From positions 62,001 through 126,000 of the forward strand of contig CALSMY010000003.1 in the NCBI GenBank assembly GCA_943787575.1: a stretch of 64,000 nucleotides of DNA, given 5' to 3'. A program made the translations under genes and the position numbers. Shown one piece after another: positions 36,004 to 46,910 of the stretch. The first letter of the stretch is position 1. Each line of letters starts with the position of its first letter. The stretch is from an uncultured Opitutales bacterium (GTDB lineage: Bacteria > Verrucomicrobiota > Verrucomicrobiia > Opitutales > Seribacteraceae). Below the pieces are notes generated by a model. The model was not told where the DNA came from, did no database searches, and saw nothing but the letters and a program-made list of their open reading frames with translations.

Positions 36004-36974
36004 CTATTCTGTCATTTCCCGCCAGGCTTCATCCTTTACACTGTAAACCATAAGCTTGGAACCACTTGGCAGAAAATATAACCAACCACCTTCCACATGC
36101 GAAATCATTAAGTAATTCCCAAGAGGGAAGTGCCTACTCGTTGGGCTTCCCTAATTACGAAGCCATAATCACCAAGATTTACCGTCAAACTATCAGGTAC
36201 CCCAAATTCCATCTGTGGGTTAAAGTAATAATTTTCCATACTTTCCCAGTCATGAAATTGAAAATTGGAAGATTGGTTCCACCCGCTGCTTGCTTCTTTT
36301 GTAAGTGTACCAGTGTGCCAATTAAAGCTATTTAAGTTTTTCCACTCCGTACCGTCCAACCACTCAATATGGAAAGATTTTTCACTGGCAGAATTGCGGA
36401 TTCGAAAGGTCGCATGTTTGCCATCACTACCATTGGAACTGGAATCGTAGTTATTTAAATGTTGCTCGTCATAATCGTCCCCCTGGTCATACCTCTCATA
36501 CTGAAGAGAGCTATTAACCCCATATCCGTATGTGCTCAAATGAACTTCCAATTGAAAGAGGGGATCCATGTCACACTCTATACTAAGCTCAATCCTCTCT
36601 CCGTTTTCTGAAAAAGCAGTACCTTGTACATACCAGTCTTTATTCAATCCGAGGAGCGACCTTGCTCCAATTTCCTGTCCCCAGCGATTCCCATCTTCGG
36701 TCATATTTCCATACATGGTGTATCCGCCCTCATGAATCTTTGCAGAAAATCCATCCTTTGAATAGTTTCCCCAGATATATTCGGATTCTGCAGCACTCGT
36801 AAAGTCATCGTGGAAAAACTTTCCGTAAGGTAAATCATCATCCGAATAATTTTCTAGGGTAAAGTTTCCAGAACCAACGATCTCAGATGTAGAACCGGAC
36901 GTCTCTTTGCCCTGCAGGGTATTGTTTGAAAAATTTAAAAGAATCTCAAATTTCCCATCGGAATACTGTTCCAT
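36004..36974 (-). CDS. Hypothetical protein with the same C-terminal module, frameshifted near 36125
   Basis: Called ORF ends REAQRVGTSLLGIT*. The next frame gives GNYLMISHVEGGWLYFLPSGSKLMVYSVKDEAWREMTE*, matching the neighbouring gene. Confidence 0.55.
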
Positions 36975-37127
36975 CAAAATGGTCCCTATGTAGTATACTA
37001 AATGAAACAAAAATTAACTTAATTCAATATTTTACCTTTGGAGTGAATTAACGAAAATTAACAAGTTTGAGTTTTTACTCCGCTCAACCCAATACCAAGC
37101 TTTTTAGCCTGTTTCAGGACTTCTGAT

Positions 37128-40586: not shown

Positions 40587-41507
40587 TTATTTTGATGAAT
40601 GATTTGTTTCTTCGATCATTTTTTTTATGACTTTCAACTCGGATGACAATTCCTCCATACGGTTTTGCAGATCGTGCAATCCATCGCGTACAGGTTCTGG
40701 ATTACTTCTGCGTTTTTCGATCTCTTGTTTGATCGACATCTCAGCATTGGACTCGTCCATACTATTCATGATTACTCCAATGACTAAATTGAGTACAATC
40801 ATTGTTCCAATTAGTACAAAACTGACAAAAAAAAGGGCGGCCCAAAGAGGGGAGCCTGAAGATACTGGATTCCATTTAGCCAGATCCTCTGCAGTGTATC
40901 CGTACTGGTTTGAACCATACATATTTATATACATCACATCTGTCCAATCCTCGAGGGTTACAACCCGAAAGAGCGAAAGAATCGAGGTTTGAAGGTTTCG
41001 AAAATGGATGGGATCATTTTCACCAAAAAGAAAGACCGCCATGGCCCCGTAAATGTAGAAGAGTAAAAAGAGCAGGATGCTTACATAAAACATCGATGGC
41101 AGGCTCTTTAGCAGGCAGGTAACAAGTAGTTGTAGCTTGGGGATAGCAGTAACTAAGCGAAGGACACGCAAAATACGAGCGAGGCGTAGCACCGGTAGGA
41201 AGGCGCCTCCCAAATCAAGGAAAGGTTCGAGTAGACAGGCGGCCACAATGGTAAAATCGAAAACATTCCAGGGATTTTTAAAGTAGTTGAATGGATTTTT
41301 CCCTTCGGCCAAAATCTTGATCGATGCCTCAAGAGTAAAAATAATGAGAATTGCCCGGTCTAGAAAGCTGAGTATGTGGGCATTTTCTTGAGCGAAATTA
41401 GGGTAGGTCTGTGCACCAACTACGACCCCTGCCAATAAGATGGTAGCAATAATGAAGCGATTGAAATATTCGCTATTAGCAAGGGATGAGCAATGGGAGG
41501 AAATCAT
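40587..41507 (-). CDS. Single-domain voltage-gated cation channel (NavBac/CavAb-like)
   Basis: S4-like arginine ladder LPVLRLARILRVLRLV, pore TLEDWTDVM, S6 FVLIGTMIVLNLVIGVIMNSMDE. Confidence 0.85.
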   Translation of the reverse strand: MISSHCSSLANSEYFNRFIIATILLAGVVVGAQTYPNFAQENAHILSFLDRAILIIFTLEASIKILAEGKNPFNYFKNPWNVFDFTIVAACLLEPFLDLGGAFLPVLRLARILRVLRLVTAIPKLQLLVTCLLKSLPSMFYVSILLFLLFYIYGAMAVFLFGENDPIHFRNLQTSILSLFRVVTLEDWTDVMYINMYGSNQYGYTAEDLAKWNPVSSGSPLWAALFFVSFVLIGTMIVLNLVIGVIMNSMDESNAEMSIKQEIEKRRSNPEPVRDGLHDLQNRMEELSSELKVIKKMIEETNHSSK

Positions 41508-43849: not shown

Positions 43850-45585
43850 TTAGAAAATGATTTTTGCTTCTGGAAGTGCTTTCCTCAATGATTCAACACC
43901 TTTATCCGTAACCTCAGAGTTCCAAAGATAAACTTCTTCCAAATCCTTTAATGCGGCTAGATCTTTAATTGCACCATCGGACACTTTGGTTCCAGAGAGA
44001 TTTAAATAGCGAAGAAATTGCATATTCTTAAGCTGTTTAATTCCCAGGTTTGTAACTCCAGTACTTCTTAAGCCAAGCCAGGTTAGGTGTTTCATTTTTT
44101 TAACAGTACCCATTACCTGGTCGTTCACTTTTGTCCTGGAAAGATCCAGATGAGAGATGTTGCTTTGTATACCTGATAAAGCACCGACTGCACGGTTTTC
44201 AATCAAACTTGGCCCCGATGAGAATTCAGCCCTGACCATGTTGTGCTTTACGGAAAGTGGAGTGACCAGAGCACCGGTCTTCTGGGCTACTTCCAGCTGG
44301 GTTTTGGAAGGTTTGCTGAGCCTTTTGCCCAAGAGATCGACCAGAGGAATTTTGATGTCTCCTGAAGAAACCAGTGCAGCTGAGGCTTTTTCTTCCTTGG
44401 GGCGTTCGAAAACATCAGAGGGATATTCTTTGGCTCCCTCGTCAATCCATTGTTTAAATAAGGAAATCTCATCTTCTGTTAGAGGTTCTCCCTTGGGAGG
44501 CATTAGTTCGGAATCATCGGGGTCTAAAGTCATGACAACATAGAGGGTACTTTCCTCATGATCTCCACGGTCTATGATAGGACCGTCTAAGTTTCCTTTG
44601 AGGACAAACTCGTATGTATTTAGAGCAAGCCCTGCTTTGGGGTGAATCGTTCGACCGTTTTTAACATAGGGTTCTCCGTGGCAGTCAAGGCACCGATCTT
44701 CCAAAATTGGAAATATATGGTCGTGAAAACTTATGCCTGCACCAGCTACCGCGACTCCACCACCCCACTTCCCTTGGGTTTTGCACCTTCTTCGATCCAA
44801 CGCTTAATAATGTCAATTTGCTCTGCGGTAAGGGGACCTCCTTTGGGAGGCATAAACATGTCATCATCTTCATCGAGGGTAAGCACTTCATGGAGGTAAC
44901 TGTCGGCCACATCGCCAGCGGTAACTACAGTATTGTCCAGGTTTCCTTTCATTACCAGTTCGTAGGTATTTAATGCTAGGCCGGCTTTTGGCTGAATGGT
45001 TCGGCCATTTTTATCATAGGGTTCATTGTGACAATTTAGGCACCGGTCTTCTAGGATAGGAAGCACATGATTGGTGAAATCAATAGGTTCGCCTGCTTTG
45101 GGGGGACCACCTGCCTTTGCAGCAACTGCAAGATTAGGATCTTGTCCAAGTTTGACTGGTTGATAAGAGAAGAAAGATCCAGGTCGCAATTTAGCTTTCT
45201 TTTTTGGCTGTGCTTTTAATCGTGGCCCGTCGATAGGTTCAGCAATTGAATCTTCCATCGTCGCGGATACTTCCGTTTTCCGTTTTTCTTTGGTGGAAGC
45301 AGCCGGTTGCTTTGACACAAGATTTCTGGGATCTCCAACAGGAAGCTTCCCAACTTGACTAAGTTCTCTTAAATAGGACTGGTCCGCTGTGGATAGTTGG
45401 TTGTAGGGGACGGGGTAGAGTTTTTTATCTTTTCCTTCCAGGTAGAAGGTCTGGCCTTCATAACTTAATGCACGGGCTGTAAAAGACTGTCCGTTAACAG
45501 CAGTAAAAGTCCTGAAAGCTTCTTCTGCATAGGAAAATGAAAAAGTTGTGCATGCAAGCACACACAAAATCCAACGACACACCAT
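43850..45585 (-). CDS. SHD1 domain + two tandem Planctomycete-type cytochrome c (PSCyt) domains + leucine-rich repeats, split by a frameshift near 44770
   Basis: N-part RTFTAVNGQSFTARALSYEGQTFYL...ILEDRCLNCHNEPY. C-part in the other frame ILEDRCLDCHGEPY... plus LRRs (LTWLGLRSTGVTNLGIKQL). Confidence 0.7.
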
Positions 45586-45605
45586 TATTCAGAGAACTTA
45601 CTTAA

Positions 45606-46910
45606 TTAAGCAAGTACGTCTAAGCAAGGTTCTCCTTCGTGAGCCACTTTAAAGGGGCGGCCAGATGGAGAGTACTGTACATCATTCAAGGGTAGGCCCA
45701 TGTTGTAACCGATGGTTGCGTTGAGACCTGCAGGGTCAACGAATTTTCCTTCTACTGGGTTTCTGCCGACTTTATCCATTTTTCCATAAACCGTACCTCC
45801 TTTAACACCGCCACCAGCAAGGAAAGCAGAGAATCCGTAAGGCCAATGGTCTCTTCCATTTCCTCCATTAATTCTGGGTGTTCGTCCAAATTCTGAAACG
45901 AGTACAATCATGGTGTCTTGTAGCAATCCACGCATTTCTAAATCTAGCATAAGAGCACTGAGGCCTTTATCTAAATCTGCACAGTTGTTAGCAACTGATT
46001 CAAAGTTATTGGAGTGGGTATCCCAGCCACCTCGATTTACTTCAATGTAACGAACCTTATTTTCTACAAGACGGCGTGCGAGCAGACAGCCTTGTCCAAA
46101 AGCAGAGCGACCATAGAGGTCTTTCATGGCATCGGGTTCGGAAGCCACATCAAATGCTTTTAAGTCTTCACTACGCATCAGTTTGATCGCATCATTGTAG
46201 AGGTCTGTGTAAGCACGTACCTGTTTTTGGTCATAGTTGTCTAAAAAGCTGGCATTCATCTTTTGTGCCATGGCTAATCTGCCGTCGAACCTAGTTTGGT
46301 CGAGGTAATCAGCAGCTTTACTATTTGCTAATCCTGCTTGTGGGTTGCCAATGGGAAGAGGACCAAACTTAGATTCCAAAAATCCTGAGCTACCAGAGCG
46401 TCCGTTAATGGCAATGTTCATCGGGATTGTTGAATTAATAGGACCAGACATTTTTGCGATCCAACTGCCAAAGGTTGGGTGAGTAATCGTTCCCCGCATT
46501 TGATAACTTGTGTGCATCAGGTAATTGCCCTGCATGTGTGCACCTTGGCTCGTCATCATTGTACGAATGATGGCTGCATTGTGCATATGCTTAGCTGTCT
46601 CCGGTAAGTATTCAGACAAAAACACTCCGTCTGCACTAGTTGAAATAGGATTAACCGGTCCTTGGTAGGTATCTTTGTCTGCATCTGTGTTAGGGGCAAA
46701 GGTGTCCATGTGGGACATTCCAGCAGACATGTATAAATAGATGAGGTGACGCGCATTAGCGGGTCGTGTACCAGGTTGTAAAGCCTGGACAGGGGTGTGC
46801 ACATAGGAGCCGGCCATGGGCAAAAGGCTAACCCCCAAGCATGCTTTGGCAGCACTAGCTACAAATTCTCTACGACTTAATTCGTTAAGTGATTTAAGGT
46901 CAGATTTCAT
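45606..46910 (-). CDS. DUF1501 family protein
   Basis: Twin-Arg-like N-terminus (SRREFVASAAKACLG). YLYMSAGMSHMDTFAP, FGRTPRINGGNGRDHWPYGFSAFLAGGGVKGG. Confidence 0.85.
   Translation of the reverse strand: MKSDLKSLNELSRREFVASAAKACLGVSLLPMAGSYVHTPVQALQPGTRPANARHLIYLYMSAGMSHMDTFAPNTDADKDTYQGPVNPISTSADGVFLSEYLPETAKHMHNAAIIRTMMTSQGAHMQGNYLMHTSYQMRGTITHPTFGSWIAKMSGPINSTIPMNIAINGRSGSSGFLESKFGPLPIGNPQAGLANSKAADYLDQTRFDGRLAMAQKMNASFLDNYDQKQVRAYTDLYNDAIKLMRSEDLKAFDVASEPDAMKDLYGRSAFGQGCLLARRLVENKVRYIEVNRGGWDTHSNNFESVANNCADLDKGLSALMLDLEMRGLLQDTMIVLVSEFGRTPRINGGNGRDHWPYGFSAFLAGGGVKGGTVYGKMDKVGRNPVEGKFVDPAGLNATIGYNMGLPLNDVQYSPSGRPFKVAHEGEPCLDVLA

Follow-up and report, generated by a model that had tools for sequence, protein, structure and literature searches.

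Among bacterial one-domain channels, NavPp of Plesiocystis pacifica has a selectivity filter that reads exactly TLEDWTD, a sequence which is also the predicted ancestral filter of BacNavs (PMC7041947). NavPp prefers Na+ (PCa/PNa 0.308, T232A construct) and its current is lowered by external Ca2+ (PMC7041947). Its mutants T6S (TLEDWSD) and T6A (TLEDWAD), copying the engineered filters which are Ca2+-selective in NavAb and NaChBac, respectively (quoted in PMC7041947), stay Ca2+-blocked (PMC7041947). In the case of CavMr of Meiothermus ruber, the filter is TLEGWVD and PCa/PNa reaches 218, with Gly at filter position 4 being the key determinant of high Ca2+ selectivity in the ancestor-like BacNav (AnclNav) group (PMC7041947). 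The CavMr filter placed in NavPp confers high Ca2+ selectivity (PCa/PNa 215), and the NavPp filter placed in CavMr (CavMr-Pp) gives a PCa/PNa of 13.8 and a PK/PNa of 0.95, that is, poor discrimination against K+ (PMC7041947). Since CavMr-Pp is nonselective with the filter of NavPp, residues outside the filter must count. Two further cloned AnclNavs with NavPp-like filters produced no current (PMC7041947). According to the "beacon" rule, one-domain channels with Asp at the beacon position are counted as Ca2+-selective (PMC10120453); a word search of that paper found no mention of NavPp.

The DNA analyzed here (the window) is a stretch of 64,000 nucleotides from an uncultured Opitutales bacterium, and its minus strand, to which all coordinates of the channel refer, encodes a one-domain voltage-gated cation channel of 306 aa in an uninterrupted ORF (40587–41507). 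The Ion_trans domain PF00520 covers residues 13–255 (170 bits, E 5e-50; Pfam), and the NCBIfam profile search gave no match. In detail, the voltage-sensor domain S1–S4, placed by the PF00520 span and the model helices, occupies residues 13–121 (41145–41471). S4 (41145–41198) carries R108, R111, R114, and R117, followed by K124, and the first three of these arginines are invariant among 98 relatives. The S4 arginine repeat and the S5-P-S6 pore, together with the Pfam, model, and Foldseek results, place the protein among the six-transmembrane voltage-gated cation channels. The original prediction of a voltage-gated channel with an S4 arginine ladder was therefore correct, and so was its reading of TLEDWTD at 40938–40958, which the translation places at residues 184–190. 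This heptapeptide aligns with the filters of NavAb, NavMs, and NaChBac and is thus not a chance match. Three residues before it, in the P1 helix, lies R181 (40965–40967), at the position of NavAb Gln172.

The long linker between pore and S6 that had been proposed is also present, with 36 aa between filter and S6 in the window channel versus 16 aa in 16 of the 16 canonical BacNavs (+20). It includes an extended extracellular P2-S6 (L6) loop at residues 198–219 (40851–40916). S6 follows at residues 220–250 (40758–40850) with T235 and G244, the equivalents of NaChBac T220 and G229. The C-terminal helix, residues 273–304 (40596–40691), shows heptad hydrophobics at 277, 280, 284, 287, 291, 294, and 298, and by analogy with BacNav C-terminal domains it is likely to form the coiled coil of a tetramer.

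The AlphaFold2 model built with 58 relatives reached a pLDDT of 88 and replaced a poor model from nine sequences (pLDDT 62). It contains S1–S6, the P1 helix (172–183), the P2 helix (188–197), and the C-terminal helix. The top Foldseek matches of the model were NaChBac, CavAb, NavAb, and NavMs, with whole-chain TM-scores that are low (0.31–0.37 by query), probably due to the free placement of the voltage sensor and the C-terminal helix in a monomer model; the fold was assigned from E-values and sequence instead. The PDB matches comprise human T-type and L-type calcium channels, Nav channels, NaChBac, NavMs, and NavAb. The scores of the human T-type channel were rejected as evidence of Ca2+ selectivity, because the contributions of four domains are added up in them.

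NavPp itself has a strong candidate in a Myxococcota genome of 10.6 Mb, about the size of the P. pacifica genome (locus L170; identified by numbering and genome size, not by name), where the ATG start puts TLEDWTD at 182–188 and the S6 threonine at 232, in agreement with the published numbering. A match in a second 10.6-Mb Myxococcota genome (L171) was discarded, since the published numbering does not fit. The window channel and L170 have an identical stretch of 22 residues through P1, filter, and P2, LSLFRVVTLEDWTDVMYINMYG, and over the pore L170 is 67% identical to the window channel, as compared with 47% for NaChBac and 39–40% for NavAb and NavMs.

The phylogeny with known families that had been suggested as a check was carried out. 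In a tree of 47 sequences, built without the filter columns and without CavMr among its rows, the window channel and L170 are located among 36 AnclNav-side sequences, apart from 11 canonical BacNavs (support 100/99). The separation from the canonical families thus holds. A tree of 118 sequences showed the same split with lower support. Both the branching apart from the canonical NavAb-like and Bacillus BacNavs and the filter, which is TLESW-like with more negative charge, make the window channel a new member of the known AnclNav group. It carries neither the Gly at position 4 of CavMr-type Ca2+ channels, having Asp187 instead, nor the TLESW filter and short P2-S6 linker of canonical BacNavs.

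Within its group the filter is not unusual. Among AnclNav-side channels, TLEDWTD is the commonest filter both in a scan biased by its pattern (57 of 80 loci) and in the alignment set (74 of 129 rows), with matches in Bacteroidota, Planctomycetota, Gemmatimonadota, Myxococcota, Cyanobacteria, Leptospiraceae, and Nitrospinaceae. A variant, TFEDWTD, is found in the archaeon Methanolobus bombayensis (L109, 5001–5819); this channel, on a long branch, is positioned near those of Opitutales and Planctomycetota and was possibly acquired by gene transfer. A sample of 388 genomes from the same phylum as the window, chosen irrespective of filter, contained further AnclNav-side filters, namely TLEGW[IA]D, TLDNW[GS]D, TLDDWRN, and TLENWPD. 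Four Verrucomicrobiota channels of the AnclNav side (L040, L042, L043, and L044) combine short P2-S6 loops with TLDNWGD or TLDNWSD, a filter type of which no description was found in the channel literature examined.

Filter position 4 changes state 13 times on the tree of 118 sequences, with several separate Gly-4 branches. Channels with Gly-4 filters (TLEGW[V/I/A/T]D and close variants; L088, L095, L129, L135, L115, L037, L132, and others) are scattered among those with TLEDWTD. This pattern suggests that the Na+/Ca2+ preference, as predicted from the filter, has switched repeatedly in the AnclNav group, and the repeated Asp/Gly changes place natural relatives of different predicted selectivity at hand.

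The gene is under purifying selection, with a dN/dS of 0.06–0.08 within the genus (three pairs with unsaturated dS). It is present in all eight genus members, in most of the family, and in 30 of the 57 relatives overall, and each of the 27 family loci in which the pore is covered, the window included, keeps TLEDWTD. The gene order LMW phosphatase–channel–leuS–lpxI, in which leuS and the phosphatase are named from their Pfam domains, is kept in family loci of sufficient length; the phosphatase is less conserved and went undetected in some family loci. A 300-aa ORF adjoining lpxI (36108–37010, minus strand) had no Pfam match. Elsewhere in the window (43850–46910, minus strand), two adjacent PSCyt1 (Planctomycete cytochrome C) proteins, one of them with leucine-rich repeats, lie beside a DUF1501 protein. 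The closest named records for the channel are Opitutales/Opitutia MAGs and single-cell genomes (Verrucomicrobiota), and the plasmid search returned distant ion transporters only, about 28–34% identical. The host genome encodes flagellin-domain proteins and a Na_Ca_ex family protein, so that Na+ and Ca2+ cycles are both possible in the host, and neither decides which ion the channel carries. Na+-NQR (PF03116) was not found in this genome, which is 86% complete. One flagellin N-terminal domain, outside the window (G000:C11:131847–132221), belongs to an open frame of 1254 residues, far above the usual length of flagellins.

As to selectivity, the window channel quite probably prefers Na+ and is blocked by Ca2+ like NavPp, judging by the common filter, the 22-residue identical core, the 67% pore identity, and the position on the AnclNav side of the tree. 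It would be a homotetrameric voltage-gated AnclNav cation channel with a pore closest to that of NavPp, in which depolarization would shift the S4 arginines and open the S6 gate, as expected from the family. In the pore, E186 ringed by D187 and D190 would favor Na+ and let a minority of Ca2+ through; external Ca2+ would block at low affinity, as measured for NavPp, and R181 behind the filter may offset the extra aspartates. Several points weaken this likeness to NavPp: the poor selectivity that this filter gives when placed in CavMr, the lack of the L6 cysteine pair of L170, the two silent AnclNavs with NavPp-like filters, and the identification of L170 by means other than name. The original prediction had taken the filter as Ca-type, a label that does not follow from its charges, given the Na+ preference and Ca2+ block of NavPp, and had proposed a possible native Ca2+ or mixed-selectivity channel. 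Of these two, the Ca2+ part finds no support in the NavPp data, and the mixed part is partly borne out, as NavPp passes some Ca2+ and CavMr-Pp is poorly selective. The sequence TLEDWTD, which by itself is already known, does not therefore indicate a calcium channel; for one-domain channels of bacteria, selectivity is wrongly predicted by counting charges, and this filter is a warning case.

A native Ca2+-selective channel similar to CavAb, in which rings of D187 and D190 bind Ca2+ and outcompete Na+, would agree with the engineered TLEDWSD and TLEDWAD channels and with the beacon rule, and yet it appears very unlikely. The parents of CavAb and CaChBac carry Gln at the position of R181. The T6S and T6A mutants of NavPp remain blocked by Ca2+, and high Ca2+ selectivity among AnclNavs is associated with a Gly at position 4 (PMC7041947). 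Furthermore, NavPp prefers Na+ although its filter is identical and so, provided that L170 is NavPp, are the 22 residues around it. This identity of P1 end, filter, and P2 helix with L170 also argues against a poorly selective channel that passes Na+, K+, and Ca2+. Such a channel, for which CavMr-Pp is the model (PMC7041947), is an unlikely outcome, even though about one-third of the pore residues differ from L170 and the L6 cysteine pair is missing in the family of the window channel (it is found in L170 and in 46 of 79 Asp-4 relatives).

A residue outside the filter that may contribute to the probable Na+ preference is R181. An arginine occupies its position in 80 of the 82 aligned channels with Asp at position 4, whereas all 16 canonical BacNavs, including NavAb, the parent of CavAb, have Gln; Gly-4 channels show Gln, Gly, Lys, Arg, Ser, or Glu. 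The converse is not strict, as position 4 is Asn, Ala, or Gly in seven sequences that have the arginine. For independent pairs of the tree, the association of Arg181 with Asp187 gave only four supported pairs, a number without power, for which no significance is claimed. This association across channels may be new. In NavAb, Gln172 lies behind the pore, hydrogen-bonds the main-chain carbonyl of Glu177, and is held by Arg185; Met181 can approach Gln172 of the neighboring subunit, and Gln172 is treated as an unresolved candidate (PMC12919392). In the group of the window channel, Gln172, Met181, and Arg185 correspond to Arg, Asp, and Ile, so that, from the alignment, the P2 helix seems to have lost its arginine to the P1 helix, where aspartates arose next to the new position.

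It is conceivable, though we hold it doubtful, that in TLEDWTD channels the near-invariant R181 pairs with D187 and/or D190, perhaps those of another subunit, and neutralizes the charge that would attract Ca2+. The neutralization has a precedent in molluscan Cav3, where Na+ permeation results from a lysine that neutralizes the aspartate at the beacon position (PMC10120453). If NavPp has the arginine, its high Ca2+ selectivity with the CavMr filter implies that Arg alone does not prevent such selectivity, and R181 would act only together with Asp at position 4. Were the pairing real, it would explain why natural TLEDWTD channels prefer Na+ and are blocked by Ca2+ whereas engineered TLEDW(S/A)D mutants of Gln channels select Ca2+, and perhaps why Na+ selectivity was not transferred in the CavMr/NavPp swap. 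The published filter swaps did not settle why one type of heptapeptide gives Na+ preference in NavPp but Ca2+ selectivity in engineered NavAb and NaChBac, and the P1-helix arginine is a single-residue candidate for the cause.

Compared with the described systems, the window channel thus resembles NavPp most, with an identical filter. The candidate L170, from a different phylum and 52% identical overall, additionally has the common core, Arg at −3, a long L6 loop, and Thr at the NaChBac T220 position, and differs in its two L6-loop cysteines. CavMr belongs to the AnclNav group by its published description and, by its published numbering, has 57 residues from T183 to G240, as compared with 60 from T184 to G244 in the window channel and 40 from T189 to G229 in NaChBac, so that the extended L6 loop is as in CavMr; the difference is Gly in place of Asp187 in the filter. 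NavAb and CavAb have the same fold with 35% identity, but the L6 loop of the window channel is 20 residues longer and Gln172 and Arg185 of NavAb are replaced by Arg181 and Ile194. CavAb agrees with the window channel in the Asp residues at positions 4 and 7 of the filter, and differs at position 3, where Asp stands instead of Glu; its filter had been given correctly as TLDDWSD, in agreement with TLDDW(S/A)D in PMC7041947. Finally, NaChBac has the same architecture, 35–39% identity, and the conserved T220 and G229 equivalents, but is distinguished by its filter TLESWAS, its short L6 loop, and its placement in a separate clade.
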